DNA of 30,957 bases from a virus: IMG/VR virus record IMGVR_UViG_3300029922_000229, positions 1 to 30,957 of that record. One strand, given 5' to 3'. Below, piece by piece: positions 2,103 to 30,227 of the stretch. The notes beneath the pieces are model-generated. The model made no database searches and had not been told where the DNA came from. It worked only from the letters and a program-made list of their open reading frames with translations. Each line of letters starts with the position of its first letter. The first letter of the stretch is position 1. The translations under genes and the position numbers were made by a program.

Positions 2103-2110
2103 TATTTATC
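2103..2110 (-). promoter_or_regulatory. Late promoter of the gene at 1655-2095
   Basis: GATAAATA on the minus strand, seven bases (ATTAGAG) before the ATG at 2095. It resembles the T4 late consensus TATAAATA. No room for a normal ribosome binding site remains downstream of the expected start site. Confidence 0.6.
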
Positions 2111-2116
2111 TTTTTC

Positions 2117-2124
2117 CATAAATA
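2117..2124 (+). promoter_or_regulatory. Probable late promoter of the gene at 2137
   Basis: CATAAATA, twelve bases before the ATG at 2137. It lies seven bases from the oppositely oriented late motif at 2103-2110, so the two form a divergent pair. The longer gap would leave a leader of roughly six bases. Confidence 0.45.
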
Positions 2125-2136
2125 TATAGGTATATC

Positions 2137-2673
2137 ATGCAAAAAATTTTAAATGAGGATCAAAATTCTATCTATGAAAAGTATAAAGGTGAAGTATTGA
2201 CCGAAGATCAAACGATGCTTTACAACAAATGGGTGTCGGGTATTGCGACTCGTGATTTAAAAGGACAACAAGTTACCATGTCTGACATTATTGATAAATT
2301 TAATAATGACGTAAATGGTGACAAAGCACCACCTCAATTACCTTATCCATTAACACTTTTCACTGATTCGATAGGGGAGATTTACATAAAATTATTAGAA
2401 ATGCAGGATAAAATAGTAATGGCTGAAGATTATCCAGTTGTTCAGGAAAATGAATTTGGGAAAGTTGCATTGATTAGAATCAGAAAAAAAAGCGAGAAAA
2501 TGAAGAGAATTTTAATTGCAATGACTAATGATTTGAATCTAATTCTTTCTACTTATGGGAAGAAATCGGAGATTCACGTAAAACCCAAAACGGATAAAGA
2601 TGTAGAATTAGATAAGTTAGCTAAGAAATATAAACCAGATACTGCGAGAAATGCCCAACCAGAGATAAAATAA
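2137..2673 (+). CDS. Unknown phage protein, charged and helical
   Basis: A 178-residue protein I do not recognise. It is mostly helical and rich in Lys, Asp and Glu. The N-terminus repeats a pattern (LNEDQNSIYEKY, LTEDQTMLYNKW) that looks like two copies of one short helical motif. A middle section (PYPLTLFTDSIGEIYIKLLEMQDK) is followed by a basic helix (RIRKKSEKMKR) and a disordered charged tail. No membrane or signal sequence is seen. It is divergent from the late gene at 1655-2095, and a late-type motif lies twelve bases before its start, so late expression is likely. Confidence 0.7.
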   Translation: MQKILNEDQNSIYEKYKGEVLTEDQTMLYNKWVSGIATRDLKGQQVTMSDIIDKFNNDVNGDKAPPQLPYPLTLFTDSIGEIYIKLLEMQDKIVMAEDYPVVQENEFGKVALIRIRKKSEKMKRILIAMTNDLNLILSTYGKKSEIHVKPKTDKDVELDKLAKKYKPDTARNAQPEIK

Positions 2674-2681
2674 AATATTTC

Positions 2682-2709
2682 TTGCATTTTTGAAGTTTTA
2701 TGCTATTTT
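2682..2709 (+). promoter_or_regulatory. Early promoter of the gene at 2716
   Basis: TTGCAT (2682-2687), 16-base spacer, TATTTT (2704-2709), then six bases to the ATG at 2716. It has the same geometry as the primase promoter. Confidence 0.65.
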
Positions 2710-2715
2710 AGTAAA

Positions 2716-3946: not shown

Positions 3947-5088
3947 CTTGTAACTGAAGCTTTTAAAGGCTCCGAAACGTAGGGTTCATTGACTGGAACC
4001 ACAAATTGTTTAATATATCTATCTTTAATGTTTTTAGCAGCATTCAAATCGGCATGTTCTGCATGCCCACATTTCAAACAAACAAACTTATCTTCTATCC
4101 TATTTTTTTCTTCACAATGTCCACATTTACTACAGGTTTGACTAGTATAAGCAGCTTTAACGTAAACCACTAACTTACCTTTAGCATCTGCTTTATACTC
4201 TAAGAATTGCTGTAATTGAAAATAACTCCAATTATTAAGTTTGCTATTCGGTTTCTTATTCTTCCATTTGTTTTGATACTTATTAGTATTCTTTTCTTTA
4301 ATACCTTTTAAGTCTTCTAAAACAAAAATATTATAATTTGAATTAACTAACTTTTTACTGATACAGTGATTGGTATCCAAAACAAACCTCTTCTCTTTCT
4401 TATTACGTTTACGGAGTAAACGTTTTGAAGAACGAGTGCCTTTCTTTTGTAGTTTTTTCCTGAGAAAGTCATATTTATTTTTAATAAAGACAGTTCTTTC
4501 AGAGGATACTAACAGACCATCACTAGTAGCAATAACATTATTGATACCTCTATCTACACCTAGAACTGACTGCGTATTCAATTTAGGTTTAATTGGATCA
4601 TTAACCTCTTTAGAATAGGTTAAATGAATCCAAAATTGTTTTTTCTTTTTATCATAGGATAAAGTAGCAGAACCTACTTTCCAGGTTTGATAAATTTCCT
4701 GATAATAATCAGGAACATGAAGAATTTCTTTATGTCTTTTATTAAGTCCTATTAAAGTGAGTTGTTTACCTCTCAAATCAAAGCTTCTAATATTAAGATT
4801 AAGACTTAGACTTTTTTTAATAGGAATTTTACCTTTTAATTTATTTCTTTTACAAGCTGACATAGCTTGATCTCTAATTCCTTGTAAAAGAGCACTTTTA
4901 ATGGTTGGATATTTTTCTTGAAATTTCCTATAAGTTGTTTGGTGGCATTTATTTTTACTATAAGAGCCTACTTCATAGGCATGGTTAGTATAATCATTAA
5001 ACAAACCGTTACAATTTTGTATTAAAGTTAGATAATCTTGTTTTGGAAGATCATTAACTTTTAAGTTAATTGTTTTAATTAATTTCAT
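3934..5088 (-). CDS. tnpB: TnpB RNA-guided nuclease (IS200/IS605 family)
   Basis: A full-length TnpB of 384 residues. The N-terminal part is basic and helical (wedge/REC-like). The RuvC acidic residues are all present: GVDRGINN, VLEDLKG and HADLNAAKN. Between the last two is a zinc ribbon, CSKCGHCEEKN followed by CLKCGH. TnpB proteins are small RNA-guided DNA nucleases, ancestors of Cas12, that help an element persist by cutting empty sites. The protein ends inside the right-end hairpin, as is usual. TTGAAA, 16 bases, TAAATA lies upstream (about 5099-5126 on the minus strand), and a GATAAATA motif ends ten bases before the ATG. All catalytic motifs look intact, so activity is plausible. Confidence 0.93.
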   Translation of the reverse strand: MKLIKTINLKVNDLPKQDYLTLIQNCNGLFNDYTNHAYEVGSYSKNKCHQTTYRKFQEKYPTIKSALLQGIRDQAMSACKRNKLKGKIPIKKSLSLNLNIRSFDLRGKQLTLIGLNKRHKEILHVPDYYQEIYQTWKVGSATLSYDKKKKQFWIHLTYSKEVNDPIKPKLNTQSVLGVDRGINNVIATSDGLLVSSERTVFIKNKYDFLRKKLQKKGTRSSKRLLRKRNKKEKRFVLDTNHCISKKLVNSNYNIFVLEDLKGIKEKNTNKYQNKWKNKKPNSKLNNWSYFQLQQFLEYKADAKGKLVVYVKAAYTSQTCSKCGHCEEKNRIEDKFVCLKCGHAEHADLNAAKNIKDRYIKQFVVPVNEPYVSEPLKASVTSHLL

Positions 5089-5114
5089 TCTTCATATATA
5101 TTTATCATTTATTA

Positions 5115-5142
5115 TTGACATTTCAATAGGAAATGTTAAAAT
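5115..5142 (+). promoter_or_regulatory. Early promoter upstream of the gene at 5220
   Basis: TTGACA (5115-5120), 16-base spacer, TAAAAT (5137-5142). The ATG at 5133 overlaps the -10 region and so cannot be the start of translation from this promoter. The next ATG (5155) opens a short leader frame; the gene proper starts at 5220. Confidence 0.65.
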
Positions 5143-5154
5143 ATTTTTATAATT

Positions 5155-5223
5155 ATGAAAAAATTAACGATATTCATCCCCCATTTGAAAATGGGGGTTT
5201 CCTATCTAAGGACGGTACGATGA
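5155..5223 (+). CDS. Possible 22-codon leader peptide
   Basis: A short frame opens twelve bases after the -10 box and closes on a TGA that overlaps the ATG at 5220 (ATGA), which is the usual arrangement for translational coupling. The peptide begins MKKLTIFIPHL and is basic. The perfect hairpin at 5178-5197 lies within it. It could be a leader that controls the following gene, or chance. There is no second copy to compare. Confidence 0.3.
   Translation: MKKLTIFIPHLKMGVSYLRTVR
5178..5197. repeat. Perfect inverted repeat (hairpin)
   Basis: CCCCCATTT (5178-5186) pairs with AAATGGGGG (5189-5197), a nine-base perfect stem with almost no loop. No U-run follows, so it is not a standard terminator. 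It lies in the 5' region of the gene at 5220 and about 90 bases upstream of tnpB on the other strand. It could be an mRNA leader structure or the left-end hairpin of the IS605-type element. Confidence 0.6.
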
Positions 5224-5486
5224 AAATTAAATCAGGTAAAGAGAAGGAATATCAGGAATACAAGGAGAGAAACTTAGATGATTATGGAAAACCTATAATT
5301 ATTTTTTCTGAAAAATGGGCAGAATTAATGGAGAAAGAAATTTCTACTGGTAAAACAATTGGGGAGGTTTATGACAAAAAACCTAAGATGGGATTGAGTG
5401 GTTTTCAAGTTGAGTGTGCTGTAATTGGTCTGTGTAATTTTTGGGAGCATGGGGATGATCTACGCAGAGTGTGGTACTCCTATTGA
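5220..5486 (+). CDS. Unknown phage protein, probably frameshifted near its end
   Basis: Starts at the ATG at 5220, preceded by AAGGA at a normal distance. The protein resembles a small uncharacterised phage family with an N-terminus like MKIKSGKEKEYQEY, a central FSEKWAELME, and a C-terminal GLSGFQVECAV...WEHGDDLRR. From memory, members continue for about 20 more residues and end in a segment like GVLNPAIL. Here the frame stops soon after DDLRR, but the +1 frame continues with NDGVVSTCSFEISK to a stop at 5530-5532. A one-base shift near 5470-5480 would restore the expected tail. It could be a real mutation, a programmed shift or an assembly error. Confidence 0.65.
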   Translation: MKIKSGKEKEYQEYKERNLDDYGKPIIIFSEKWAELMEKEISTGKTIGEVYDKKPKMGLSGFQVECAVIGLCNFWEHGDDLRRVWYSY

Positions 5487-5533
5487 TAACGATGGTGTGG
5501 TTAGCACTTGTTCATTTGAAATTTCGAAATAAT

Positions 5534-5965
5534 ATGAGTGAATTTGATGATTTTGTCTTAGCAATGCATATTGTTAATTGTGATCTGACTATTTATGAAT
5601 TAGTTTATAGTTTTGCTTCTGGTAGATTGAAAGATTTCTTGGAATTGGATGAAAATGGATTTTCTAGATGTCCACCTAAAACCCAGGGTTATTTTGAAAT
5701 AGGGGATCAGGCAAGAAAAAATTTAAAACCATACTTAAAAATGGAATCTCAAGAAGATATTAAAGAAGTGTTTTTATATTTGTATGATGTGTTTACCAGA
5801 CTGTTAAAATTTTATCGTAAATGTGAGAAAGAGAAAATTAATTTTGCGTGGGAAGAAGTTATTAAAAGGGGTTGGCATTGCGATCATGATTTCCAACTTT
5901 TTGATGAATTGCAAGATCCTAAATTGATAGAGTTGGATGTGAAGCTTTGGAGAGTGGAGATTTAA
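5534..5965 (+). CDS. Unknown early protein
   Basis: The 143-residue version starting at 5534 (MSEFDDFVLAMHIV) is preferred over the longer frame from 5471. The extra N-terminus would overlap the upstream gene and is unlike the rest in composition. The protein is helical, with a C-terminal segment containing His, Cys and Trp (KRGWHCDHDFQLFDEL). No family is recognised. It follows the 5220 gene, or its shifted tail ending at 5532, by one base, so it is co-transcribed. Its stop overlaps the stop of the convergent hub-like gene by four bases. Confidence 0.7.
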   Translation: MSEFDDFVLAMHIVNCDLTIYELVYSFASGRLKDFLELDENGFSRCPPKTQGYFEIGDQARKNLKPYLKMESQEDIKEVFLYLYDVFTRLLKFYRKCEKEKINFAWEEVIKRGWHCDHDFQLFDELQDPKLIELDVKLWRVEI

Positions 5966-7569
5966 ATGGTAGTAGTATCAAATTTTAAATCCTTATAATT
6001 GTAAGTCTTCACACATACTAAGTCATTGTAGTAGGTATTATCAATGAAATGATGTTTAACTTCGGTAATAAAGTAAATTCCCAAGAATTTATCAAAAAAC
6101 TTAGAATTTGGAACATTATACCGCATATCTATGCTTAAGAATCTTCTACTTCTTCTATGCGTACTTCCTCTGACTCTAAATGTTACTGCATTATTTAGAA
6201 AGATCGCACTTTTCAAGATTTCATTTCTACCGTAAGTTATCTTGCCTTCATGGGAATCTTCTGATGAAGTGAATATGTGCTTAGCATTAGTTTGATTTTC
6301 TCGATATTGATTTATGGTTAAATTTGATGAGGGGCTATTGCCTTTATCCCCCTTCATATTTTTTACATAGTTTTGGAAATATATATCACGAGCTTTTGCT
6401 ATATTATTATTGGTTAAATCCATGTAAAATGTTTTCTTTGGAATACTTACACTGTGGACAACAGTAGTTACTAATTTTTTTTGAACATCAAACCCAGAAG
6501 TATTTTTGAAAAAATAATCGTCCAGATTTGAATAATCCAACAAATATATACTATTCTGTTCATATGGATTGCTTCTGAGGGGATTATCATTCAATGTAGT
6601 GGCATCATTTTGATTAGAAATATAGAATTGTTCGATGGTTAATCCACCAGAAGAATTAGATGATGTTGGAGAATTAGCCAAATTAGTCTGGGAATTATAA
6701 GCTTGATCAAATAATTTCTTCATTGACACAAAACTCCAAATATCCGTATATCGATCTTTTTCTAACAAGCAAAAATCATAATTATTATCACTAGTTGAAA
6801 CGTGTCGTTTTAAGAGATAATGCAAATCATCAATAGAATAGTAATCTGATGGGGAAGTATAGAATGTTTTTGACCCACCCAGATCCCAAATGTTAGAGAA
6901 TTGGGTATTATAACCTTCTGTTGTGGGGAAATTTGTTTGTAGCAATTTCATGATGGCATCCCCAGTGAAAAGACTTCGGTCGTTATTCGAAAGATTTTTT
7001 GTATTTGGAGAATTGATATATGCTGCTGTTGAAAAATTAGTATTTTTCTCATTTAATATTTCAAAAGACCAATCCCAAAAGTGTAATTTTTTGAATTTTT
7101 CCCCTAATATTTCACCGGGAATGTCTATGGTATCATATATACAGAAGGTGAATTTCAAATTAAACATTTGTTTGTATGCATCAATATTCGTGGATGTATA
7201 TGGAACTCCAGGCACTTTCGGTAAGATATTGATAATCAACAAGTCTCTTGCATCCCCCCTGAAAGTATATTGTAAATTAGAGTCCTGCACATAACCGGTT
7301 GCATTGGTATTAGATGTATCCGTTATTCCATTATATGATTCAATAGAATCATAAGTATTTTGATAGGTGATACTTCCAAAATGATAAAAATTAGTGGCAA
7401 TATCTTCAATTACTAATTCTTTTATTGCCGCATGATTTATTTTTATTAAATCACCATTGGTATTAGTTAAAAATACTTCGAATATATAATCATCACTTCC
7501 AATTCGAATGGTTTGATTCGAATTTGGGTTTAATAGAATATTCGGAGATGCAAAGTTACTAGATGACAT
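5962..7569 (-). CDS. Baseplate hub-like tail protein
   Basis: A 535-residue late structural protein. The N-terminal segment (AIKELVIEDIATNFYHFGSI, then ITYQNTYDSIES) and the C-terminal segment (FLGIYFITEVKHHF, then NDLVCVKTYNYKDL) resemble hub proteins of T4-like phages (gp27 / gpD fold), in which the C-terminal domain closes a trimeric ring at the tail tip. The middle part is rich in Asn, Ser and Tyr and shows beta character. It follows the gp53-like gene by one base with the same orientation, which fits a baseplate operon read from the late promoter at 7990-7997. The assignment to the hub is from sequence pattern and context; a different baseplate role is possible. Confidence 0.65.
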   Translation of the reverse strand: MSSSNFASPNILLNPNSNQTIRIGSDDYIFEVFLTNTNGDLIKINHAAIKELVIEDIATNFYHFGSITYQNTYDSIESYNGITDTSNTNATGYVQDSNLQYTFRGDARDLLIINILPKVPGVPYTSTNIDAYKQMFNLKFTFCIYDTIDIPGEILGEKFKKLHFWDWSFEILNEKNTNFSTAAYINSPNTKNLSNNDRSLFTGDAIMKLLQTNFPTTEGYNTQFSNIWDLGGSKTFYTSPSDYYSIDDLHYLLKRHVSTSDNNYDFCLLEKDRYTDIWSFVSMKKLFDQAYNSQTNLANSPTSSNSSGGLTIEQFYISNQNDATTLNDNPLRSNPYEQNSIYLLDYSNLDDYFFKNTSGFDVQKKLVTTVVHSVSIPKKTFYMDLTNNNIAKARDIYFQNYVKNMKGDKGNSPSSNLTINQYRENQTNAKHIFTSSEDSHEGKITYGRNEILKSAIFLNNAVTFRVRGSTHRRSRRFLSIDMRYNVPNSKFFDKFLGIYFITEVKHHFIDNTYYNDLVCVKTYNYKDLKFDTTTI

Positions 7570-7570: not shown

Positions 7571-7984
7571 TTAACTGTTTGCTTGAGTATTAATTGAATT
7601 AATTATTAATTGCAAATATTCTGGTTTTATAATCTTCAAATTACTTCCATTGGGTGGATATATCAGTGGATTAAAAATGTTGTTTGTAAGGCAGATTAGC
7701 CACCAAAGATCAATGGTTCCGTATTCATTATAGGAAATGACTGTCCATGCTAAAGGTCTTAATAAAGTAATGTGATAATAAAAAGAAACATCCATGTTAT
7801 AAGGAAGATACACGGCATTGAGTGGATTGTAATAGTACTGTCCAGATGGATCTTGATGAAGTTTGAATATATTTTCATATTTATATGTTCCCAAGGATGG
7901 TAATGTATTGATATCACCTTGATATTCACCATAATCCAAGTCTTGATTGGAAATAGATGTAAGAGATGAAATTATTTTTCCCAT
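7571..7984 (-). CDS. Baseplate wedge protein, gp53-like
   Basis: The preferred start is the ATG at 7984 (MGKIISSLTS), 137 residues. A late promoter motif ends five bases before it and overlaps the alternative ATG at 7999. The body carries features of the gp53 family: a tyrosine-rich N-terminal half and the signature TVISYNEYGTIDLWWLICL followed by NIFNPLIYPP. In T4 gp53 this region forms a LysM-like domain that joins neighbouring baseplate wedges. The C-terminus (LKIIKPEYLQLII) fits the end of that domain. The stop is adjacent to the start of the hub-like gene, so the two are coupled. Confidence 0.75.
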   Translation of the reverse strand: MGKIISSLTSISNQDLDYGEYQGDINTLPSLGTYKYENIFKLHQDPSGQYYYNPLNAVYLPYNMDVSFYYHITLLRPLAWTVISYNEYGTIDLWWLICLTNNIFNPLIYPPNGSNLKIIKPEYLQLIINSINTQANS

Positions 7985-7989: not shown

Positions 7990-7997
7990 TATTTATC
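7990..7997 (-). promoter_or_regulatory. Late promoter of the gp53-like gene
   Basis: GATAAATA on the minus strand, five bases (TTCAA) before the ATG at 7984. The motif overlaps the upstream ATG at 7999, which argues that 7984 is the true start. Confidence 0.65.
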
Positions 7998-8019: not shown

Positions 8020-8027
8020 GTTAAATA
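8020..8027 (+). promoter_or_regulatory. Late promoter of the gene at 8034
   Basis: GTTAAATA, six bases (TACTAT) before the ATG at 8034. It is divergent from the late promoter at 7990-7997. Confidence 0.5.
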
Positions 8028-8033: not shown

Positions 8034-8642
8034 ATGGGCCAAACTATTTTGACAAACAAATCCTTAGAAGGAATCGGACTCCTTTATGAACAACTTCGTA
8101 AAAATCAAGAAAATGATTCCGAGGTTATTAAGGAGGAACTTGATAAACCAAAGGTTAATTCCAAGAATAAATTCAAAAAAGTGGATAGTTTTCCTATAGA
8201 AGATCAAAAAACACCACTTTCTAAAGTAACCCCCGAATCATTTTACAAGAAAGATAGTGGTCCAAATCGTCTTTTGAAAGATGTTTTGGTTAAACCATTA
8301 GATCCAAAAGATATTAAAAAAGGTCAAGATGATCCTTATGAAGTTAAGAAATTATCAGTGAATACTGAAAGTAAGAAAATTTTAACCAATAAGAATCTTG
8401 GTTATATCATGGAAGAACTTAAGAAAAATAATCCCGAAGTAATTCTTGAAAATCTTAAGAAATATAAGCTGCTTTGGGGTAAAGACAATTTTCGTAAACT
8501 GATTACTGTTGCTGAACAACGTGGTTGTAGCAAAGAAGTACAGAATCTTAGACTATTTGTAGAAAAGAAAATGTCTAAAAAAGTTAAAGAAGTAAAAAAA
8601 GTCAAAAAAGATAAGAAAAAATCTAAAAAGAACACTAAATAA
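8034..8642 (+). CDS. Lysine-rich probable virion protein
   Basis: A 202-residue protein of unknown function. It begins with a helical segment (SLEGIGLLYEQLRKN), then a disordered charged stretch (about residues 30-110), a folded helical part (LGYIMEELKKNNPEVILENL and onward), and a very basic C-terminus built almost only of Lys, Val and Ser. The basic tail could bind DNA, for instance as an internal head protein. A late promoter motif precedes it, and it lies among tail and head genes. The strong contrast with the following very acidic protein suggests that the two may pair, which is inference. Confidence 0.7.
   Translation: MGQTILTNKSLEGIGLLYEQLRKNQENDSEVIKEELDKPKVNSKNKFKKVDSFPIEDQKTPLSKVTPESFYKKDSGPNRLLKDVLVKPLDPKDIKKGQDDPYEVKKLSVNTESKKILTNKNLGYIMEELKKNNPEVILENLKKYKLLWGKDNFRKLITVAEQRGCSKEVQNLRLFVEKKMSKKVKEVKKVKKDKKKSKKNTK
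8634..8641 (+). promoter_or_regulatory. Possible late promoter of the acidic protein gene
   Basis: ACTAAATA overlaps the stop of the upstream gene, thirteen bases before the ATG at 8655. It is a weaker match than the other late motifs, and the gene could also be read from 8020-8027. Confidence 0.35.
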
Positions 8643-9372: not shown

Positions 9373-9404
9373 AAAAGGCGAATCAGAAATGGTTCGCCTT
9401 TTTT
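9373..9404. terminator. Rho-independent terminator, probably bidirectional
   Basis: AAAAGGCGAA (9373-9382), ten-base loop, TTCGCCTTTT (9393-9402) and further T residues. An A-rich stretch on the left gives a U-run for the minus strand as well. It separates the convergent genes ending at 9350 (+) and 9408 (-). Confidence 0.9.
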
Positions 9405-9407: not shown

Positions 9408-10004
9408 TCAATTTAATGAATATTGCCCGATATCCAAAAGATTTGGGATATATTGAGAAAAAGCAAAAGTTGCTACACATTCTGCTTCTGCTTCATCTCG
9501 ATTATTCATATCGACACCATCTAATTTAATAGGAAAAGCATCTGTAAATTCAAAGTTTATAACTGGATTATTATATTCATCTAACATGAATAAAGTGATG
9601 GTGGTTTGATATAGGGTAAGATTCAATATTCCAACAGGTTTTGATGGGTCTACTATGGATAATTCAGCATTATTTAAAATATTTAACCAGTTGAATAAAA
9701 ACCAATAATTATTCCAGTAGTTATCAACGGTGAAGTTTATTTTTAAATCTCCATGATAAGGTCTAGCTAAACTGGATATACTTACATTCTGTCCTGCATA
9801 TCTTAATGCATTGTGATCAATTGATATTTCAGGTAGATTTATTCCATAGACTGAAAAAGAAAAAGAGTCTGAATTAATTGTATTCTGACTTCTTTGTAGG
9901 GGATTGTTGGTATCAATTCCTTTTAATGCTTTAGGTATAGTTATAACTACTAAAAATTTATCTTTCCGAGCTTTATTAAAGGGTGATTGGTAAGGACTAT
10001 TCAT
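9408..10004 (-). CDS. Tail-tube-fold protein (gp19/gp54-like)
   Basis: A 198-residue protein with the pattern of T4 tail-tube proteins: FSFSVYGINLPEISID, then NVSISSLARPYHGDLKINFT and a Trp-rich NYWNNYWFLFNWLN, ending with a beta-strand YNNPVINFEFTDAFPIKLDG. T4 has the tube protein gp19 and the related tube initiator gp54; a second tube-fold gene beside the tube gene fits the initiator or another tube-cap role. It may equally be a second tube subunit. It lies downstream of the tube gene and the 37-residue membrane protein gene and has its own late promoter. Confidence 0.7.
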   Translation of the reverse strand: MNSPYQSPFNKARKDKFLVVITIPKALKGIDTNNPLQRSQNTINSDSFSFSVYGINLPEISIDHNALRYAGQNVSISSLARPYHGDLKINFTVDNYWNNYWFLFNWLNILNNAELSIVDPSKPVGILNLTLYQTTITLFMLDEYNNPVINFEFTDAFPIKLDGVDMNNRDEAEAECVATFAFSQYIPNLLDIGQYSLN

Positions 10005-10010: not shown

Positions 10011-10018
10011 TATTTACG
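10011..10018 (-). promoter_or_regulatory. Late promoter of the gene at 9408-10004
   Basis: CGTAAATA on the minus strand, six bases (CTAATA) before the ATG at 10004. Confidence 0.5.
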
Positions 10019-10160: not shown

Positions 10161-10736
10161 TTAGAATTTTGTAGTAGATGTACTGTTAACATCAAATGTC
10201 CGTTCAAAGAAGTGATAACTTAATGTAGCAGTAAAATTAACAACTTCTCCGTTACCAATCATGGAATAAGATAATTCACCAACATTTCCAATAGAAACAC
10301 CTACTAAATTATACTTAGAAACCGCATTTAATTGTTGATCTAATTGAATAAGTGTAATAATAGATCTAGCTGGAGCAGTCATGAAATTACCTGTAGAAGT
10401 TGCATCATCAAAAGTATCTCTGGACCAATCTTCAAATCTTTGTCTTAGACTGGATTTTGCATCACAGAAAAATTCCAAATTATAAGCGTCAGAACCAGGA
10501 TATTTGGCAGTTCCTTTTACATTGAAATCCAATCCCATATAAGGTACTGCTACATTAGTTAAAGCTCTTGCAGGTAGAGCAGCAGCTTTACAATATACTA
10601 AATCTTCCTCATTAAAAGTAATACCGGAAGCATTTGCGGGAGTTAATGCTAAAACTCGAAAAGAAACATCCCTTGCGAAGTCTAATGCCGCAGCTTGTTG
10701 GTAAAATGTTTGAATTGTCTGGTTAGTAACGCTCAT
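10161..10736 (-). CDS. Tail tube protein, gp19-like
   Basis: A 191-residue protein with T4 gp19 traits: an N-terminal helix and FARDVSFRVLALTP, a central segment about the tube fold (VAVPYMGLDFNVKGTAKYP and NLEFFCDAKSSLRQRFEDW), the loop RDTFDDATSTGNFM and the final strand FTATLSYHFFERTFDV. Tube proteins stack as hexamers to form the inner tail tube through which DNA passes. The length is slightly above the T4 protein (163). A late promoter motif ends six bases before the ATG. Its neighbours are a second tube-fold gene and baseplate genes. Confidence 0.85.
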   Translation of the reverse strand: MSVTNQTIQTFYQQAAALDFARDVSFRVLALTPANASGITFNEEDLVYCKAAALPARALTNVAVPYMGLDFNVKGTAKYPGSDAYNLEFFCDAKSSLRQRFEDWSRDTFDDATSTGNFMTAPARSIITLIQLDQQLNAVSKYNLVGVSIGNVGELSYSMIGNGEVVNFTATLSYHFFERTFDVNSTSTTKF

Positions 10737-10742: not shown

Positions 10743-10750
10743 TATTTATC
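10743..10750 (-). promoter_or_regulatory. Late promoter of the tail tube gene
   Basis: GATAAATA on the minus strand, six bases (ATTGAT) before the ATG at 10736. The tube is among the most abundant virion proteins, so this is probably a strong late promoter. Confidence 0.7.
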
Positions 10751-11049: not shown

Positions 11050-11057
11050 GATAAATA
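11050..11057 (+). promoter_or_regulatory. Late promoter of the gene at 11064
   Basis: GATAAATA, six bases (ATTTGA) before the ATG at 11064, directly after the stop of the early gene. Confidence 0.7.
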
Positions 11058-11063: not shown

Positions 11064-12173
11064 ATGAGTAATTACAGCAATTTTTCGAACAATGTACCAA
11101 ACAACCCGGCCATTGTTGAATATGGTAAAGCAATTCAATTAATCGGAGATACTAGGTTCCCTGATATTACTTCTGTACGTATCCATTATCCCGATAATTC
11201 GGCAGCATTCTTTTCATCACAAGCTGTAGCACTTACTTCTTATTCAATTTATCCAAAACATGCACAATTAACTTATGTGGTTAATGCCGCAGATATTCCG
11301 ACTACTACCAATATTGTTTCTGGTGGATTTTTCAATATACAGATTCCTTCTACAGGGCAAGTTAATACAACTGCACCTTTAAGTGCAATTCAAATTGGTT
11401 TTTCGGATATTAATGGTAAATTACAAGCGGTTTCTGATTCTAATCCGCTTCCAATGATTGATGCGTATGTTAATTCAACTAATGTCACTTGGACTAATGC
11501 TACAACACTTAGTTCTGCATTGACTGTTAATACTGCTGGATATGATGGTGTTGGTATTACGATTATTACATCAGGTACAGTTACGGGAGGACAAGTTACT
11601 TTTCAAGTTTGGGATGGTGCAAATTGGTTGACTACTAAAATTGGACGTTGTAACACATATAATTCTGATAGTACATATACAATTGTTGCTGGTGTTCAAG
11701 CGTGGCAAGCTGATGTTGCCCCATTTACTCAATTTAGAGTTATTCTTTCTTCGGTTATTGTTGGATCAGGATCTGTATTGGTTACTGAAGTTGTAAGTTC
11801 AGCACCAATTGTAGGTCCAGTTACTGTTGGTATAGACCCAACCCAACCTTTACCTGCTGGTACAAATAATTTGGGAAGTGTTGTTTTAGCAGTTTCCTCT
11901 TCAAATTTTGTCAATGGACAAGCAACAATTGCTTCGACCGGAGTAGCAGTACAACTCACCAGCAATTCTTATATCGTTCAAAAAGGTGTGAACATTGGTC
12001 TAAGTCCCGCAAGTCCAGGTCTTGGATATATTGGTGCATCCGGTGTTTCTGCTTCTACTGGAGTCATTGTAACTTCCGCTTCTAATAGCTTCCCAATCCC
12101 TTCTGGCGTAAATCTAAATACAATTTATGTTAATGGGACTACAGGTCAAGTGTTTTATTATGGTGGATCTTAA
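11064..12173 (+). CDS. Beta-rich virion surface protein
   Basis: A 369-residue protein, nearly all beta-strand and rich in Ser, Thr, Val, Gly and Asn. There are at least three parts: an N-terminal domain (about 1-130), a central Ig-like or jelly-roll domain (about 135-250, with QVWDGANWLTTKIGRC), and a C-terminal part with repeats of SNS-IVQKGVNIGLSPASPG type (about 270-369) that looks like a fibre or decoration domain. It has the composition of head fibres and decoration or neck proteins of large phages. There is no signal peptide. Late expression follows from the GATAAATA motif. The exact position in the virion is unknown. Confidence 0.65.
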   Translation: MSNYSNFSNNVPNNPAIVEYGKAIQLIGDTRFPDITSVRIHYPDNSAAFFSSQAVALTSYSIYPKHAQLTYVVNAADIPTTTNIVSGGFFNIQIPSTGQVNTTAPLSAIQIGFSDINGKLQAVSDSNPLPMIDAYVNSTNVTWTNATTLSSALTVNTAGYDGVGITIITSGTVTGGQVTFQVWDGANWLTTKIGRCNTYNSDSTYTIVAGVQAWQADVAPFTQFRVILSSVIVGSGSVLVTEVVSSAPIVGPVTVGIDPTQPLPAGTNNLGSVVLAVSSSNFVNGQATIASTGVAVQLTSNSYIVQKGVNIGLSPASPGLGYIGASGVSASTGVIVTSASNSFPIPSGVNLNTIYVNGTTGQVFYYGGS

Positions 12174-14279: not shown

Positions 14280-14287
14280 ATTAAATA
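14280..14287 (+). promoter_or_regulatory. Late promoter of the large terminase gene
   Basis: ATTAAATA, five bases (GTTTA) before the ATG at 14293. Confidence 0.5.
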
Positions 14288-14292: not shown

Positions 14293-16512
14293 ATGGGTCG
14301 TAAAAAGAAAGTTGTTGAAACCAATATTGAAAAAGTTGAGTTAAAACAAAAGGATAGATATTTAAGAAATCCTAATTTACCAGTTTTAGGTGCTTCGTTT
14401 GATTTTACACCTGAGATGGTGAAGGAACTTAAAAAATGTTCTGATAACATCATCCATTTCGCGGAGAATTATTTTTATATCGTAAATCTTGATGAGGGAT
14501 TGATGAAGATTCCCTTACATAAGTATCAAAAGAGGATATTGAGAGCATATAGAGATAATAGATTTAATATAGTTCTAGCATCTAGACAATGTGGAAAGAC
14601 AACTATAACCACAATTTATACACTTTGGAAATGTTGTTTTACTAATTATTATAGGGTATTAATTGTCGCTAATAAAGAATCTACTGCTAAAGGTATTTTT
14701 AATCGTATCAAGAAAGCTTATGAAGAGCTTCCTGTTTGGTTGAAGCCTGGGGTGAAAGAATATGCACAAACATCCATGGTTCTCGCTAATGGCTCATCTA
14801 TAGGAATTTCGACTACTTCAAGCGATGCTGGTCGCGGAGATTCCTGTAATTGTAGCATAGGTCAAACTTTAATCACAATTAAGAACAAAGAAACCGGGGA
14901 AATAATAAATTGTACATTTAGTGATTTTTATGAATTAATTAAACATAATGACGAATATCTTTTATTTGTGTTTGATGATGTGGATAATTATAAAGTTATT
15001 TCAAATAAGAATTATTCTATATTGACACCAACAGGATTTCGAGATTTTAAAGGTCTAATAGTGGGCGAAAATAAAAATAAGATTAAGTTGACTTTTGATA
15101 ATGGAAAAACATTAATATGTACGCCAAAACATAAATTAGTATTATCTGATATTTTTCATGTATATGCAGAGGAATTATCTATTGGTGATATACTCCCAAA
15201 TAATTTAAAATTATTATCTAAAGAATTCATCCAAAATGACGAATTAGTTTATGATATATACAATGTGGAAAATCATATATATCTTATTGATAATCAAATA
15301 GTAACACATAATTGTCTGGCGATAGATGAGGCTAGTTTTATCAGAGAGGAGTTATTAGATCCATTTTGGAAATCAGTTTATCCAATTATTTCTAGTTCTA
15401 AGAAAGCACAAATTTTAATCTGTTCTACTCCAAATGGTACGGGAAATTTATTTCATAAATTATGGTCGGGTGCAATTGCAGGAACAAATGGATGGTTTCC
15501 TTCTCGCATAGACTGGGAAGAAATCCCAGGACGTGATTTGGCTTGGAAACAAGAAACCATTAGAAATTTAGGTTCTGAAGAGATTTTCAATCAAGAATTT
15601 GGGAATGAATTTCTCAAAACTGGGGAGAGTTCCTTAGATGAACAAGTACATGCCAAATTACTTGCTAATTGTAGAGATCCAGAATTCATTTTGGAGGATG
15701 GTTGCTATAAAGTTTGGGATGAGCCTGTTAAAGATAGGATTTATGTGGCTGGAGTAGATATTTCCGAAGGTGTTGGAAAAAATTCTTCAGTTATTAATAT
15801 TCTAGATATAACTGATCTAAGTCATATTAAACAAGTTGCAATTTATTCCAATAATAAAATTATTCCATTTGATTTTGCTAAGAAAGTTAATGATGTCCTA
15901 GACAATTGGGGCAAACCTCCAGCATTAATTGAAAGAAATAATTGTGGGATTACCGTGATAGATCAGCTTGTTCAAACATACAATTATCCACTTATTGTTA
16001 CCTATCAGCATGATAAAAAGGAAGATTTACAGAGACAGGGTATTAATTCGCATACTAATTCTAAGTATAGTGGTGTAGTTAATATGAGATATTGGGTTAA
16101 TTCAAAATGTGTTGTTGATTTAAGAGATAAAGATACTGTTAGTGAACTTAAAAATTTTGTAAGAAAGGATAATGGTACTTGGAGTGGTCAAAATGAGGCG
16201 GATTTAGATGATAGAGTGATGTCATTAATTTGGGCACTTTTCATTTTGGATAAGAAAATTATCGAAAGGTATTTTGAAGTATTGAAAGAGGATGATAATG
16301 GAAAGCCGCTATTAATTAAACCTATTAATTGGGAGCCAAATATCAAAAATAATCCATTTGGAATGTATCGAGTTGAAAATAAACCAGTCTCACAGGATAC
16401 TGATTATTCAACACTTCCTGTTTTCATTGGTAATAATAGAGAATATTTTAGGAATGAGATGGATTGGTTAAAGAAAGAGGGTTACAAACCAGTTTTGGAA
16501 TTGAGTTACTGA
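14293..16512 (+). CDS. Large terminase subunit (T4 gp17-like) with intein
   Basis: A 739-residue precursor; 585 residues after removal of a 154-residue intein (187-340). ATPase motifs: Walker A SRQCGKTT (K102), Walker B CLAIDE (D345, E346) directly after the intein, and coupling motif CSTPNG (377-382). The RuvC-like nuclease has AGVDISEG (D489), ERNNCG (E547) and LDDRVMS (D639/D640). Terminases cut the concatemer and drive DNA into the prohead. The intein breaks the ATPase between the GRGDSCN segment and Walker B, so packaging needs splicing first. No small terminase gene is recognised nearby. Late expression follows from the motif at 14280. Confidence 0.95.
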   Translation: MGRKKKVVETNIEKVELKQKDRYLRNPNLPVLGASFDFTPEMVKELKKCSDNIIHFAENYFYIVNLDEGLMKIPLHKYQKRILRAYRDNRFNIVLASRQCGKTTITTIYTLWKCCFTNYYRVLIVANKESTAKGIFNRIKKAYEELPVWLKPGVKEYAQTSMVLANGSSIGISTTSSDAGRGDSCNCSIGQTLITIKNKETGEIINCTFSDFYELIKHNDEYLLFVFDDVDNYKVISNKNYSILTPTGFRDFKGLIVGENKNKIKLTFDNGKTLICTPKHKLVLSDIFHVYAEELSIGDILPNNLKLLSKEFIQNDELVYDIYNVENHIYLIDNQIVTHNCLAIDEASFIREELLDPFWKSVYPIISSSKKAQILICSTPNGTGNLFHKLWSGAIAGTNGWFPSRIDWEEIPGRDLAWKQETIRNLGSEEIFNQEFGNEFLKTGESSLDEQVHAKLLANCRDPEFILEDGCYKVWDEPVKDRIYVAGVDISEGVGKNSSVINILDITDLSHIKQVAIYSNNKIIPFDFAKKVNDVLDNWGKPPALIERNNCGITVIDQLVQTYNYPLIVTYQHDKKEDLQRQGINSHTNSKYSGVVNMRYWVNSKCVVDLRDKDTVSELKNFVRKDNGTWSGQNEADLDDRVMSLIWALFILDKKIIERYFEVLKEDDNGKPLLIKPINWEPNIKNNPFGMYRVENKPVSQDTDYSTLPVFIGNNREYFRNEMDWLKKEGYKPVLELSY
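14851..15312 (+). other. Mini-intein in the terminase
   Basis: Residues 187-340 of the precursor. It starts at Cys187 (CSIGQTLITI, block A) and ends with VTHN (block G), followed by Cys341 of the extein. Block B is seen as GKTLICTPKHKLV (T-x-x-H) and block F as ELVYDIYNVE. All residues needed for Cys-type splicing are there: first Cys, block B Thr/His, the last His-Asn and +1 Cys. At 154 residues there is no room for a LAGLIDADG or HNH endonuclease. Joined exteins read RGDSCN-CLAIDEASF, which restores a normal Walker B region. Confidence 0.93.
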
Positions 16513-16525: not shown

Positions 16526-17353
16526 TCACCCTTTTTTTGCTACTGATGATGCTACAATATTTTGACTAGAAACAATTCCAGCAGGTGCTTGTGTGGAATC
16601 CAATCTAGGAGTTTTTCTATAACCATCCCAGTTGGCACCATCCTGATGTGGTGAAGTGACCAGATGAAGGCATACGACTGTAGGAAGAAGAGCACGACAT
16701 GCCCTTGGCCATTGTGCCGCGAACATTACATCGTCGTGACTTGCCAGTCCTTTTGAAAAAACATAAGGGCGGTCGCATGTAGCGTTCCATACTTGGAAAA
16801 ATCCAATGGGAACATATCCTTCGATTGGATCAGCATATCGGTGACTAAGTGGTCCACTAGATCCACTAGATATTCTGAAACCATATTGATGGGTTGGATT
16901 TTTTCTAGCCTGTTCAATTTCATCTACACTACTAACGTCCACCCTATCGGCACCGTAAACGAAATTACGATCTAGATGGGTGTTATTAAAAAACATTCTT
17001 CGGAAATCTTGTGGTAATACACAATCCACATCAATATGTGCATGCCATCCATAGAACCTATAATAATTTTGTCCTACTGCAATGGCAGCACCTTTATTAA
17101 AATTTCTACCATCTTTTTTAAACGCATCTGTTTGAACACATGTCGCACCATATTTTTTGCATACCAATTGTGTTTTTCTATCATCATGACTAGTTACTAT
17201 AATGGCAGTATCTACTTGAGAATGATTATACCCCAATGTAACATCTAAAATATCATCGAAACCAACACAAGTAGTGACCATTTCAAATCGAAGGGAATCT
17301 TGGTCAAAAAGTTTAGGATCTGTGGGATGTGGATTAGACGGTAGGCTTGGCAT
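16526..17353 (-). CDS. Probable GT-A-type glycosyltransferase
   Basis: A 275-residue protein. The first half has a nucleotide-sugar-transferase layout: a strand VTTCVGFDD, helix, TAIIVTSHDD, a second strand YGATCVQTDAF, and an acidic DxD-like motif (HIDVDCVLP) after about 105 residues. The second half has YGFRISSG, a GYVPIGFFQVW block and SHDDVMF, typical of acceptor-side segments in small phage and bacterial GT-A enzymes. It may modify virion proteins, phage DNA or host surface sugars. G+C is above that of its neighbours (32 of 60 at 16681-16740). A late-type motif precedes the start, and it is convergent with the terminase gene, 13 bases apart. Confidence 0.65.
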   Translation of the reverse strand: MPSLPSNPHPTDPKLFDQDSLRFEMVTTCVGFDDILDVTLGYNHSQVDTAIIVTSHDDRKTQLVCKKYGATCVQTDAFKKDGRNFNKGAAIAVGQNYYRFYGWHAHIDVDCVLPQDFRRMFFNNTHLDRNFVYGADRVDVSSVDEIEQARKNPTHQYGFRISSGSSGPLSHRYADPIEGYVPIGFFQVWNATCDRPYVFSKGLASHDDVMFAAQWPRACRALLPTVVCLHLVTSPHQDGANWDGYRKTPRLDSTQAPAGIVSSQNIVASSVAKKG

Positions 17354-17359: not shown

Positions 17360-17367
17360 TACTTACG
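17360..17367 (-). promoter_or_regulatory. Late-type promoter of the glycosyltransferase gene
   Basis: CGTAAGTA on the minus strand, six bases (ATCTAT) before the ATG at 17353. It carries one change (G for A) from the usual NNTAAATA, but the distance is the same. Confidence 0.4.
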
Positions 17368-20778: not shown

Positions 20779-20806
20779 TTGATTTTTCGAAAAATTTTGT
20801 TAAAAT
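20779..20806 (+). promoter_or_regulatory. Early promoter of the dUTPase gene
   Basis: TTGATT (20779-20784), 16-base spacer, TAAAAT (20801-20806), then seven T-rich bases to the ATG at 20814. No ribosome binding site fits in the gap. Confidence 0.7.
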
Positions 20807-21350: not shown

Positions 21351-21378
21351 TTGACAATTTTTGTTTTTATGATAAAAC
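21351..21378 (+). promoter_or_regulatory. Early promoter of the gene at 21385
   Basis: TTGACA (21351-21356), 16-base spacer, TAAAAC (21373-21378), then six bases (ATATCG) to the ATG at 21385. Confidence 0.65.
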
Positions 21379-26484: not shown

Positions 26485-26569
26485 ACTAGCTAAGAAAAAA
26501 GGATTAGTTGGCAAGCTTATCAAAACAGAAGATTGGGAATTTCTTCATGGGCAGTTGGAAACTCTATAA
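26480..26569 (+). pseudogene. C-terminal remnant of a gene cut by the relic element
   Basis: Directly after the right end, one frame reads LAKKKGLVGKLIKTEDW and ends HGQLETL with a stop at 26567-26569. It has no start and is 29 codons long. The peptide looks like a natural protein end. It may be the tail of the gene at 26064 (now in another frame) or of a deleted gene. Confidence 0.45.
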
Positions 26570-26572
26570 ATA
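26565..26572 (+). promoter_or_regulatory. Late promoter of the amidase-like gene
   Basis: TATAAATA, an exact match to the T4 late consensus, five bases (TTATT) before the ATG at 26578. With the usual start about six bases downstream the mRNA would begin at the A of the ATG. Confidence 0.8.
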
Positions 26573-26577: not shown

Positions 26578-27177
26578 ATGTCCTTTATTACTTATAATTC
26601 AAAATTAAATGAAAATGTTGAACTTTTCAAATACAAAAATATCAAGTTGAGATTGGGGGATTTAGTTTTCCAAGATCTTCCTGAAATTTATATCATAGAT
26701 TTGATTTATTACAGTCAGAATTCAAAAGGTCCGGTTCATGTGGGAATAGTTAGTGGATTTGACTCATTAGGAATCCCCATTATTACTGAGGCATTCCCAA
26801 TACTTGGCGTTCATACAATTTCCCTGCCATTATTCGTCACTAGATATCCTTTTGGAATTTTTTATAAAACTTGGAAAGATCAAACAATTGTTGAACCATT
26901 ACTTGCAAACATTGCTACTAAAATCGGATTGGAATATAACATACATTTCAGTGATAACCCCTCAAGTCAATATTGCAGCGGATTAATTTGTGAAGCTTAT
27001 AATGCAATAAGTCCTATTCCAATTTTATGTACTCAAACAATGTTAGAACTTTCCAATAAAGTTCCCGGTTTATCTTCCTTATATGTTCAATATGAAGGAA
27101 TTGTACCTAATTTTGGTGAGAATATTTGGACCCCAAAAGACTTATTGGATGCTAAAGAATTGGAAGATGTTATTTAG
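26578..27177 (+). CDS. Papain-like amidase (YiiX / permuted NlpC-P60 type)
   Basis: The start at 26578 (MSFITYNSKLNEN, 199 residues) is chosen because the late promoter ends five bases upstream; the longer frame from 26533 would begin upstream of it. Features: RLGDLVFQ near residue 25, VHVGIVSG (catalytic His) near residue 55 and SQYCSGLICEAYN (catalytic Cys) near residue 140, the circularly permuted order of the YiiX group. Such enzymes cut amide bonds in peptidoglycan peptides or lipoproteins. Late expression and the nearby endolysin-like gene suggest a role in lysis or as a virion-borne wall enzyme. Convergent with the next gene, with a four-base stop overlap. Confidence 0.75.
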   Translation: MSFITYNSKLNENVELFKYKNIKLRLGDLVFQDLPEIYIIDLIYYSQNSKGPVHVGIVSGFDSLGIPIITEAFPILGVHTISLPLFVTRYPFGIFYKTWKDQTIVEPLLANIATKIGLEYNIHFSDNPSSQYCSGLICEAYNAISPIPILCTQTMLELSNKVPGLSSLYVQYEGIVPNFGENIWTPKDLLDAKELEDVI

Positions 27178-27762: not shown

Positions 27763-27791
27763 ATATTAAATCATTTTTAGTTTTTTGTCAA
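27763..27791 (-). promoter_or_regulatory. Early promoter of the nucleotidyltransferase gene
   Basis: On the minus strand TTGACA (27786-27791), 17-base spacer, TAATAT (27763-27768), then seven bases to the ATG at 27755. The -35 box overlaps the stop of the endolysin-like gene. Confidence 0.65.
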
Positions 27792-28369
27792 TAAATTATT
27801 GCGGCAAGTGTTCTGAGGATAATTAGAACACCTACTTCTTTATCAATTTCAGTAGGAGAATAAACACCATCAGAAGTATATTTTCCTCCTAGATTGTCTA
27901 CCCCATTAAAATAACAATCTGTTCCTGCGAGGGTATAAGGATCAGAAACTCCACGATGCAAATATCCAAGACCATTAAAATAAGTAGCATACGTAATCAT
28001 TTTTCCAAAATCTAAACAATCCTTAGTAATCCCTGATGCTGCAATGGCAGGTTTCTCTCTTGTGAGTGCATCTACTGCACCAGAATACCAATCGTTGAAC
28101 AATAATCCAGATGGGACGTTTACTGTTTCTTTTCCAAGAGGATCACCATTCCCTAAATAAGTCGTAAAATCTAAATCAGCTTCACGATAATGAAGTGCTA
28201 TTATAAGTATACTTGGGATATTAGTAGCTTCTGATACCTGTTCATAAAGGCCAGAATTAGCCCGAAAACAAGTAATGATTTCTTTTAAATCATATTTCTG
28301 ATTCTCTGTAAGATTCTCGTCACAATCAAGGTTGCAATTCGTATACTTTCCAATAATTACTAACTTCAT
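27788..28369 (-). CDS. Probable endolysin (lysozyme-like domain)
   Basis: A 193-residue protein. The central block IPSILIIALHYREADLDF, then YLGNGDPLGKETVNVPSG and a helix WYSGAVDAL, matches a lysozyme-like domain found in phage and bacterial wall hydrolases; the Glu in HYREAD is a candidate catalytic residue. Later parts (FGKMITYATYFNGLGYLHRG, DPYTLAGT) fit the substrate cleft side. There is no signal peptide or membrane helix, so release would need a holin. Read from a promoter with the early geometry, which is unusual for a lysis gene. Confidence 0.65.
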   Translation of the reverse strand: MKLVIIGKYTNCNLDCDENLTENQKYDLKEIITCFRANSGLYEQVSEATNIPSILIIALHYREADLDFTTYLGNGDPLGKETVNVPSGLLFNDWYSGAVDALTREKPAIAASGITKDCLDFGKMITYATYFNGLGYLHRGVSDPYTLAGTDCYFNGVDNLGGKYTSDGVYSPTEIDKEVGVLIILRTLAAIIY

Positions 28370-28374
28370 ATAAG

Positions 28375-28402
28375 AATATAAAAGTTAAGTTTATTTAGTC
28401 AA
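28375..28402 (-). promoter_or_regulatory. Promoter of the endolysin-like gene, overlapping the tnpB stop
   Basis: On the minus strand TTGACT (28397-28402), 16-base spacer, TATATT (28375-28380), then five bases to the ATG at 28369. The -35 box is made from the codons TTG ACT near the end of the IS607-type tnpB gene. Confidence 0.65.
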
Positions 28403-29653
28403 GGGGATTATATTCTCCCTAGCATCATAAACCCCGCCCATCATCCAGAAAAATCCAGACTTTCTATTGAGTTTTTGATGAAACACCTTTTCAGGAACTT
28501 TTTCAAGCTTGAGTGATAGATTCAATGCAGCATTTAAATCTGCATCACTCTCATAAGAGCAATGCTTACATTTAAATAAGGATTTCTTTCTATTTCCTTT
28601 GTTTACATAACCACATGAATAACACCTCTGAGAACGAAACTTATTGTGAACCTCATTGAATTGAAAACCTTTCTCTTCACTGACACTTTTAAGCTTCTTT
28701 TTTATCAACGTGTATTTCCATGCTTGCATTAAACGATTTGTTCGTTTAAATTTCCTGAGATTCTTTACTCTCTCGAAATTAATCTCTTTAACATCATCAA
28801 AATTTAACTGATTAATTGACCAATTAACATAATTTTTCCTGTGTTCTTGAGCTTTACTAAAATTAATACTACCCTTTTTCTTTTTTGATAATTTATGTAA
28901 AATTGTATTCAAATCCTGACCATGCTTATTCATTACGGTGAATTGTCCATCACTCATTGATGCACAGGTTATCTTTCCCTGATCACACCCCACTATCTTA
29001 GTACCATTTGTTTCTTTCTGTTCTAATTCCCATATTAGATCAATAGTTTTATCTTCATATATTCTAATAGCAGAACTTATTCTTTTAGCACCTTTTAATT
29101 CTAAATCTCTTGAATGTTTATGAAAATTATAAGGAATTTTAATTGTTCCTACATTTCCAGCAAATGAAAGCTTAAGAAATTCATGAAAATGTTTAGATGG
29201 TTTAATATCTTTAACTACATCTGGTCTTGATATTTCAATAACTAAATTATTTAAATTTGGTTTCAGTGGTTTGTTTTTCTTTATTGCTTTTATTAATCGA
29301 TTGATTTCCTTTTCATCTGGTTTTTCTTTTTCTTTTAATTTTCCAAGAACATAAAGACGCTTTCTTTGTTTTTCAGTACTACTTTTTAGCATTTGGAGAG
29401 CTTTTAATCCTGCATTTTGTCTAAGCATTCCACCCAATTCCGTTGGGAATTGGGAAAGGAAAGAAACATCTAAAAACTTAGGTAATTGTAATTCATCTTC
29501 TTTTACATTAAATTCTTTATGACCTTTATCCCATATAAAATCAATTAAGGTTTGGACATATGATTTATATTGAGCGAATAATAAATTAAGTTTAACCTGT
29601 TTAGATTTGGTTAAATGGATTTTATGATGACTTCTTCTATAAATCTTTTTCAT
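28391..29653 (-). CDS. tnpB: TnpB RNA-guided nuclease of the IS607-type element
   Basis: A 420-residue TnpB with all RuvC residues: VGCDQGKITCAS, INFERVKNL and DADLNAALN. Its zinc ribbon is CYSCGYVNKGN followed by CKHCSYES. The N-terminal domain is basic and helical. It shares little with the TnpB at 3934 beyond these motifs, so the two are separate lineages. Its start overlaps the end of tnpA by 17 bases. The guide-RNA scaffold should lie at the 3' end, but here only about 20 bases separate the stop from the next gene, so part of the scaffold must be inside the coding region or the guide falls in the endolysin-like gene. Confidence 0.92.
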   Translation of the reverse strand: MKKIYRRSHHKIHLTKSKQVKLNLLFAQYKSYVQTLIDFIWDKGHKEFNVKEDELQLPKFLDVSFLSQFPTELGGMLRQNAGLKALQMLKSSTEKQRKRLYVLGKLKEKEKPDEKEINRLIKAIKKNKPLKPNLNNLVIEISRPDVVKDIKPSKHFHEFLKLSFAGNVGTIKIPYNFHKHSRDLELKGAKRISSAIRIYEDKTIDLIWELEQKETNGTKIVGCDQGKITCASMSDGQFTVMNKHGQDLNTILHKLSKKKKGSINFSKAQEHRKNYVNWSINQLNFDDVKEINFERVKNLRKFKRTNRLMQAWKYTLIKKKLKSVSEEKGFQFNEVHNKFRSQRCYSCGYVNKGNRKKSLFKCKHCSYESDADLNAALNLSLKLEKVPEKVFHQKLNRKSGFFWMMGGVYDARENIIPLTK

Positions 29654-30212
29654 TTAGAACCTCCTTTATAAGATGTGTTTTTCTTTTTCCTCTACGTTGA
29701 CCGTAGATTCTAGCACAGAAGGATGTTATCACGGAGATAAAATCCTGAATTAGATCATCCTGTTCAGTGAGTGTTTCATTAATAACTATCAATTCACAAT
29801 CATTTTTTTGGCATAAAAGTTTAATGAAATTAAACCCGAAACGGGTTAATCTATCTTTATGTTCAACCACTAATCTGGTAACTTTAGATTGTTCTAAGAT
29901 AGACAATAATTTAGGTCTGGAATCATTAAGACCTGATCCTACTTCTTCTATGGATTGATTAACAGACCATCCATTAACATTACAGAACGCTACAATTCTC
30001 TCAGTTTGTGATTCTAAATATTTTTTATTTAAGGTAGATGAAACTCTAGCATACGTGACAGTGAAAGGCGATTTGGTTTTAGTTTTAACATCCGGTACAA
30101 TAATAGTACCGGTTGGGAGTTTATAGGCATTTTCCAATTTACCTGCTTTGAAAATATTCCAAGCAGTTTGATAGGAAACTCCCGTTTGTTTTGCCCATTT
30201 AGATAATTTCAT
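29637..30212 (-). CDS. tnpA: IS607-type serine recombinase TnpA
   Basis: A 191-residue recombinase. An N-terminal MerR-like helix-turn-helix (KLSKWAKQTGVSYQTAWNIF, residues 2-21) is followed by the resolvase domain: TYARVSS (catalytic Ser58), LESQTERIVAFCNVNGW, an acidic IEEVGSGLNDSRPKL, VVEHKDRLTRFGF (Arg cluster) and the ending FCARIYGQRRGKRK. This is the usual order and length for IS607 TnpA, which moves the element with little target preference. All key residues are seen. It is preceded by a phage-type late motif. Confidence 0.93.
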   Translation of the reverse strand: MKLSKWAKQTGVSYQTAWNIFKAGKLENAYKLPTGTIIVPDVKTKTKSPFTVTYARVSSTLNKKYLESQTERIVAFCNVNGWSVNQSIEEVGSGLNDSRPKLLSILEQSKVTRLVVEHKDRLTRFGFNFIKLLCQKNDCELIVINETLTEQDDLIQDFISVITSFCARIYGQRRGKRKTHLIKEVLNEKDL

Positions 30213-30219
30213 CCACTAT

Positions 30220-30227
30220 TATTTATC
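30220..30227 (-). promoter_or_regulatory. Late-type promoter in front of tnpA
   Basis: GATAAATA on the minus strand, seven bases (ATAGTGG) before the ATG at 30212, the same motif and distance as in front of phage late genes. Confidence 0.6.

Follow-up and report, generated by a model that had tools for sequence, protein, structure and literature searches.

Late transcription in bacteriophage T4 starts at a box in the −10 position without a −35 element, requires the phage sigma factor gp55, serves the virion genes, and depends on a hexamer that is avoided in antisense orientation inside genes (PMC2988020). All of these features recur in the group formed by a 30,957-base DNA fragment of IMG/VR record IMGVR_UViG_3300029922_000229 (the window; 42 genes scored, 31% GC) and its uncultured relatives, here called the clade. 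The two systems differ in the distance from the box to the start codon. T4 mostly leaves 21–29 nucleotides (nt) between box and ATG and is rich in Shine-Dalgarno (SD) sequences, and cultured T4-like phages likewise keep leaders of ~20–30 nt, whereas in the clade the box ends 5 nt from the start codon and promoter-proximal genes have almost no SD. The first two positions of the box are also loosened relative to T4, with mostly A at −12. The interpretation favored here, with a probability of roughly 0.86, is that most transcription units of the clade, early and late, would yield mRNAs that are leaderless or carry a leader of 1–2 nt, SDs being kept for some internal genes and for the capsid gene.

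Leaderless initiation is itself known. Most middle and late mRNAs of the Thermus phage phiYS40 are leaderless (PMC3594737, citing Sevostyanova 2007). That phage is not T4-like and contains five TAAATA-N5-ATG occurrences in its whole genome; in the clade the early units, too, would be leaderless, and the genomes are A+T-rich and T4-like. phiYS40 is reported to shift host IF2/IF3, whereas no IF3 gene was found in the clade records searched. Actinobacteria and Deinococcus-Thermus have many leaderless genes, for which the criterion is a TANNNT box ~12 bp upstream of the start (PMC3160421). Those are cellular genes under host sigma factors; the clade also fuses a phage late-sigma motif to its starts, and its late leaderless starts would include GTG, not TTG. 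The nearest named phages by gp23 (~33% identity; terminase 28–34%) are the cyano- and pelagiphages P-HM1, Mosig and C48C1, whose late boxes lie mostly 20–33 nt upstream. The Far-T4 phages (RM378 group) have a very divergent gp23 and no detected T4 transcription-regulation genes (PMC4360716). The clade is set apart from this description, as gp23 of one relative (G006) aligns to T4 gp23 over 491 residues at 28% identity and gp55 is present, although Far-T4 gp23 was not itself compared. Searches of open-licence papers turned up neither a leaderless T4-like phage nor a T4-like clade in which both promoter classes abut start codons; a clade of this kind appears undescribed.

The window is part of the genome of a T4-like myovirus that belongs to a large, uncultured clade. 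It encodes homologues of gp17, gp19 and gp61 and, weakly, a baseplate-like gene, and its relatives add gp18, 21, 23, 25, 32, 41, 43, 44, 46 and 47, uvsX and uvsW. In IMG/VR, 262 relatives were found. Tail tube identity between the window and the clade is 46–57%, and its terminase is ~30% identical to those of cultured phages. A terminase tree separates 13 clade members from T4, P-HM1, Mosig, C48C1 and SRB7757 with support of 100/100. The relatives examined, of up to 217 kb (G009), were read in pieces.

Nine T4-type late motifs had been listed in the original prediction, and direct reading found all of them in place, ending 5–7 nt before start codons (Table 1). Eight carry TAAATA. The ninth, upstream of 17353, reads TAAGTA and is plausibly a real variant, since TAAGTA also precedes gp19 at similar spacing in one relative (L092/L094). 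TAAATA 4–8 nt before an ATG occurs at 8 of the 42 genes against 0.60 expected from shuffled upstreams. One further late box, not listed earlier, precedes a recombinase gene at 30212, and another may lie at 30359/30362 (TTG at gap 6, GTG at gap 9). Four TAAATA sites, before 2137, 5088, 8655 and 17421, have wider gaps of 10–13 nt. Six host-type early promoters have −10 boxes that end 5–7 nt before ATG. An SD core precedes none of the eight late sites and none of the four scored early sites. The assertion that most virion genes are preceded by such motifs is too strong for the window, where a number of the promoted genes could not be given a function, and a local consensus with G or C in the first position was not borne out. 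Throughout the clade, −13 is weakly constrained (A50 T24 C16 G10) and −12 is mostly A.

Across the clade, the distinct upstream regions of 1,038 genes were pooled. The late box ended 4, 5, 6 and 7 nt before the start at 14, 99, 53 and 19 genes, and strict early gaps of 6, 7 and 8 nt were found at 52, 11 and 12 genes. Genes with TAAATA at gaps of 4–8 nt numbered 8 in the window, 10, 9, 11, 23, 12 and 12 in G002, G003, G005, G006, G007 and G008, and 52, 34 and 26 in G009, G010 and G011, with shuffles giving 0.4–1.8 across all ten. In G009 the late count compares with 1.8 after shuffling and the early count is 46 versus 2.6; start-abutting host-type promoters in G006, G010 and G011 numbered 21, 26 and 20 versus 1.4, 1.3 and 1.6. 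The pattern TAAATA-N5-ATG occurs 195 times in the ten clade records (~1.17 Mb; reversed-pattern control 28) and 54 times in 15 whole cultured T4-like genomes (~2.46 Mb; control 32). Its early counterpart, TTGA-N18/19-TATNAT-N6-ATG, occurs 53 times in the clade (control 0) and 9 times in the cultured set (control 3). T4 itself, in the same analysis, had late boxes mostly 21–29 nt out, none at gaps of 4–8 and two at gap 1, and no early promoter at gaps of 0–8. Motif placement relative to starts, a check proposed with the original prediction, is thus non-random genome-wide and leaves the leaderless reading unrefuted.

The −10 hexamer of sigma70 promoters lies at −12 to −7, which leaves 6 nt to +1. 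The T4 late box spans −13 to −6 and leaves 5 nt (PMC2988020). The clade modes of 6 (early) and 5 (late) match these geometries, and the start codon is therefore read as +1; two unrelated elements would each stand where they are needed if the start codon were the first transcribed base. Alternatively, transcription may begin at variable positions a few nucleotides past the motif, giving leaders of 1–8 nt that are SD-free and not strictly leaderless. The 84 clade late sites at gaps of 6–8 and the 38 at gaps of 9–13 fit such a model, but the sharp modes at exactly 5 and 6 favor a start codon at +1 at many sites, and short variable leaders are considered unlikely as the general arrangement.

The two elements divide the genes by class. 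Among clade orthologues of T4 genes, virion genes have 33 late and no early promoters and replication genes 18 early and no late ones; the 93 orthologues with neither are presumably mostly operon-internal. Early sites favor a −35 element at 16-nt spacing. A −35-like hexamer accompanies only 27 of 197 late sites, which instead have an 8-bp TATAAATA-type box with a TAAATA core and −13/−12 relaxed to A-rich. The search for gp55 suggested earlier was successful, with tblastn hits in all eight large relatives and, in G006, a match to PHROG late sigma at E = 7.6e-24; the window fragment itself does not contain the gene. TAAATA is scarce in the window as a whole (36 versus ~79 in dinucleotide shuffles) and is avoided inside genes on both strands (10 and 7 sites, where synonymous shuffles give 24 and 22). 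Such avoidance is expected of a promoter and not of a signal in the RNA, so that TAAATA most probably acts in transcription and not in translation.

The opposite view places the real promoters further upstream and takes TAAATA and the A/T-rich −10-like boxes for signals in the mRNA, namely A/U-rich sites that would bind the ribosome or S1 and allow translation without an SD. It may draw on the position of these elements, −6 to −12, which is that of A/U-rich enhancers in SD-poor bacteria, and on the internal genes, which also mostly lack an SD. This view is nevertheless improbable. A translation signal would not account for the 33/0 and 0/18 split, the −35 elements, the antisense avoidance or the encoded gp55, nor for late and early modes that differ by the 1 nt predicted from promoter geometry. 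In addition, −35/−10 pairs, as judged by eye, stand upstream of several tRNA genes in G009, which are untranslated. This 217-kb record contains 16 tRNA genes (L131, L138, L139). In G010 (4004–6689; L141), TTGAC-..-TATAATAGGAGTATG recurs at several early genes; the AGGAGT that follows their −10 box lies before the ATG, too close to it for SD function.

For the tail tube gene gp19 the start codon is fixed by homology, as the protein is alignable from residue 1–2 in the clade and in T4. The box lies exactly 5 nt upstream in 47 of 53 distinct upstreams and 6–7 nt upstream in 5, and TAAGTA replaces it in the last. The promoter spacing is the same at gp25 and gp21. These genes make it very doubtful that the clade has T4-like leaders and that the true starts are downstream codons with SDs, even though longest-ATG calls are uncertain for some genes, such as that at 7984, whose orthologues start ~15 residues later. 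The start codons were also assessed from the open-frame triplet following 1,481 clade TAAATA sites. At gap 5 this was ATG 124 times and GTG 34 times, compared with 2–10 and 0–4 at gaps of 10 or more, and TTG remained at background (1 at gap 5). Because ATG and GTG are enriched and TTG is not, the late leaderless starts of the clade would comprise AUG and also GUG. The use of GTG and not TTG is a possible clue to the type of host. Chance in an A+T-rich genome, to which the 31% GC and the commonness of TAAATA as an A/T hexamer might point, is a negligible explanation given 8 sites against 0.6 expected in the window and 52 against 1.8 in G009, a degree not reached in A+T-rich T4 and a Campylobacter phage, and was ruled out by shuffling the upstreams, permuting the hexamer and reversing the patterns.

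An SD core stands before 4 of 197 late, none of 124 early and 71 of 421 (~17%) operon-internal clade starts, compared with 50–59% of T4 genes. Most internal genes begin between −40 and +20 relative to the stop codon of the gene before them. The tail sheath gene gp18 lacks an SD in relatives that provide it with its own abutting promoter and carries GGAG in relatives that do not. The capsid gene gp23 has GGAG ~14–16 nt before its ATG in 4 of 4 relatives. The predicted genome-wide leaderless expression is supported for promoter-proximal genes, where the late and early modes, their retention at orthologues and the presence of gp55 agree with it, and does not extend to operon-internal genes and gp23, which have no abutting promoter and in some cases an SD. 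A conserved GGTCGA(C) element precedes gp23 (G006 9392–9436, L027; same place in G009, G010 and G011) and may belong to a dedicated capsid-gene leader. Since some genes keep real SDs, the host anti-SD is probably functional and used selectively by the phages; SDs retained at a few of the relatives' genes also rule out that the pattern arose solely from a host that no longer uses SDs. An IS607-type pair in the window (28391–30212, minus strand) consists of a recombinase with a phage-style late box and a TnpB that differs from the phage genes in having a canonical SD, AAAGGAGG.

In the leaderless model, early and replication units would be read by host RNA polymerase from sigma70-type promoters (TTGAnn-16-TATNAT). 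The −10 box of these promoters typically leaves 6 nt to the start codon, and the polymerase would begin at the AUG. Late and virion units would be read from gp55-type TAAATA boxes that typically end 5 nt before the start codon, with gp55-RNA polymerase beginning at AUG or GUG. The ribosome would then load on the 5′-terminal AUG (late also GUG) without an SD, by analogy to known leaderless initiation, and downstream cistrons would be reached through coupling or overlap or through an SD, as at gp23 and, where it lacks its own promoter, gp18. A more sweeping version is put forward tentatively, at somewhat below even odds: a whole T4-like lineage may have given up initiation from a leader with an SD in essentially every transcription unit. 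Host- and phage-sigma promoters would be fused to AUG/GUG, SDs would be left to internal cistrons with a high output, the capsid gene among them, and the phage would depend on, or actively impose, a leaderless mode of the host ribosome.

Several points weigh against the leaderless model. Leaderlessness is deduced from promoter geometry, the start sites being placed by reference to T4 and sigma70, and the absence of longer transcripts and the mode of ribosome loading are likewise deduced. Leadered copies could arise in addition if transcription runs through from promoters further upstream. Sites at gaps of 10–13 in the window would be near-leaderless, with leaders of a few nt. Part of the SD scarcity at late and early sites is inherent in the layout, since a promoter next to the start codon takes up the room of an SD. 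Gene starts were taken from the longest ATG open reading frame, and related records are not independent. Homologues of gp33 and gp45, searches for which were also proposed earlier, gave no match in the relatives searched, although gp33 is a short protein and the Pfam search for gp45 was uninformative, matching no control either. Conserved proteins adjoining gp41 and elsewhere, considered as gp45 candidates, proved to be a glycosyltransferase, an amidotransferase, PhoH, QueE and others. Finally, two scans of bacterial genomes, with TnpB and with a tail-tube alignment, returned no host match, and the hallmark genes Photo_RC (psbA) and WhiB were each found in 0 of 16 records, an absence that does not exclude cyanobacterial or actinobacterial hosts. 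Phage-encoded translation factors, raised in the original prediction, were rejected as a cause, as IF3_C was found in 0 of 17 records and S21 and S1 domains in 0 of 8 each. With none of these genes in the records searched, the host's own machinery is presumably competent for leaderless translation.

If correct, this would be unusually complete leaderless expression for a bacterial virus, and it would occur in the lineage of T4, a model phage that is leadered and SD-rich. Promoter position would become a direct reporter of translation initiation in the host and may help to find it. Close relatives would form a natural experiment in which leaderless initiation can be compared with SD initiation at one gene, gp18. 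SD-dependent gene callers may assign wrong starts, also where the leaderless start is GTG.

Table 1 Putative promoters, associated genes and the SD control in the window.
Feature	Position	Strand	Spacing, conservation or basis
Early promoter TTGCAT-16-TAAAAT	599..626	+	6 nt before ATG 633 (primase); early leaderless-type promoter at primase in G005, G006, G011
Early promoter TTGCAT-16-TATTTT	2682..2709	+	6 nt before ATG 2716; ATG-abutting −35/−10 in G005, G006, G007, G008, G011 orthologues
Early promoter TTGATT-16-TAAAAT	20779..20806	+	7 nt before ATG 20814 (dUTPase-like by sequence reading)
Early promoter TTGACA-16-TAAAAC	21351..21378	+	6 nt before ATG 21385
Early promoter TTGACA-17-TAATAT	27763..27791	-	7 nt before ATG 27755
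Early promoter TTGACT-16-TATATT	28375..28402	-	5 nt before ATG 28369
Late promoter GATAAATA	2103..2110	-	7 nt before ATG 2095; TAAATA shortly upstream in 8/9 orthologues of relatives
Conserved gene, no assigned function, predicted leaderless late	1655..2095	-	Relatives' orthologues
Late promoter GATAAATA	7990..7997	-	5 nt before ATG 7984; G011 orthologue TAAATA-5-ATG
Baseplate-wedge-like gene	7571..7984	-	PHROG 22056, weak
Late promoter GTTAAATA	8020..8027	+	6 nt before ATG 8034
Lysine-rich protein, no assigned function	8034..8642	+	Sequence
Late promoter CGTAAATA	10011..10018	-	6 nt before ATG 10004; TAAATA 4–5 nt before ATG in G005, G006, G010 orthologues
Tail tube (gp19-like) paralogue	9408..10004	-	PHROG 45, 1e-20
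Late promoter GATAAATA	10743..10750	-	6 nt before ATG 10736; kept at 5–7 nt in 52/53 distinct relatives' upstreams
Tail tube gp19	10161..10736	-	Homology
Late promoter GATAAATA	11050..11057	+	6 nt before ATG 11064
369-residue protein, no assigned function	11064..12173	+	
Late promoter ATTAAATA	14280..14287	+	5 nt before ATG 14293; TAAATA same place at gp17 of L021, G008, G007
Large terminase gp17 with intein-like insertion (~14851–15315)	14293..16512	+	Homology
Variant late promoter CGTAAGTA	17360..17367	-	6 nt before ATG 17353; TAAGTA also in L092
275-residue protein, no match in searches	16526..17353	-	
Late promoter TATAAATA	26565..26572	+	5 nt before ATG 26578
Permuted papain-like amidase	26578..27177	+	Pfam Peptidase_C92
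Late promoter GATAAATA	30220..30227	-	7 nt before ATG 30212, IS607-type serine recombinase (identity by sequence reading)
SD AAAGGAGG before TnpB	29654..29667	-	ATG 29653; internal positive control in window

Three other features of the window may be mentioned. The insertion in the terminase is in frame (C...CSIGQT ... VTHNC) and apparently missing from the terminases listed for the relatives. An open reading frame at 24843–25307 resembles a macrodomain protein, as judged from its sequence. The region 17421–20747 encodes a clade-conserved protein of 1108 residues with an N-terminal PKD domain.

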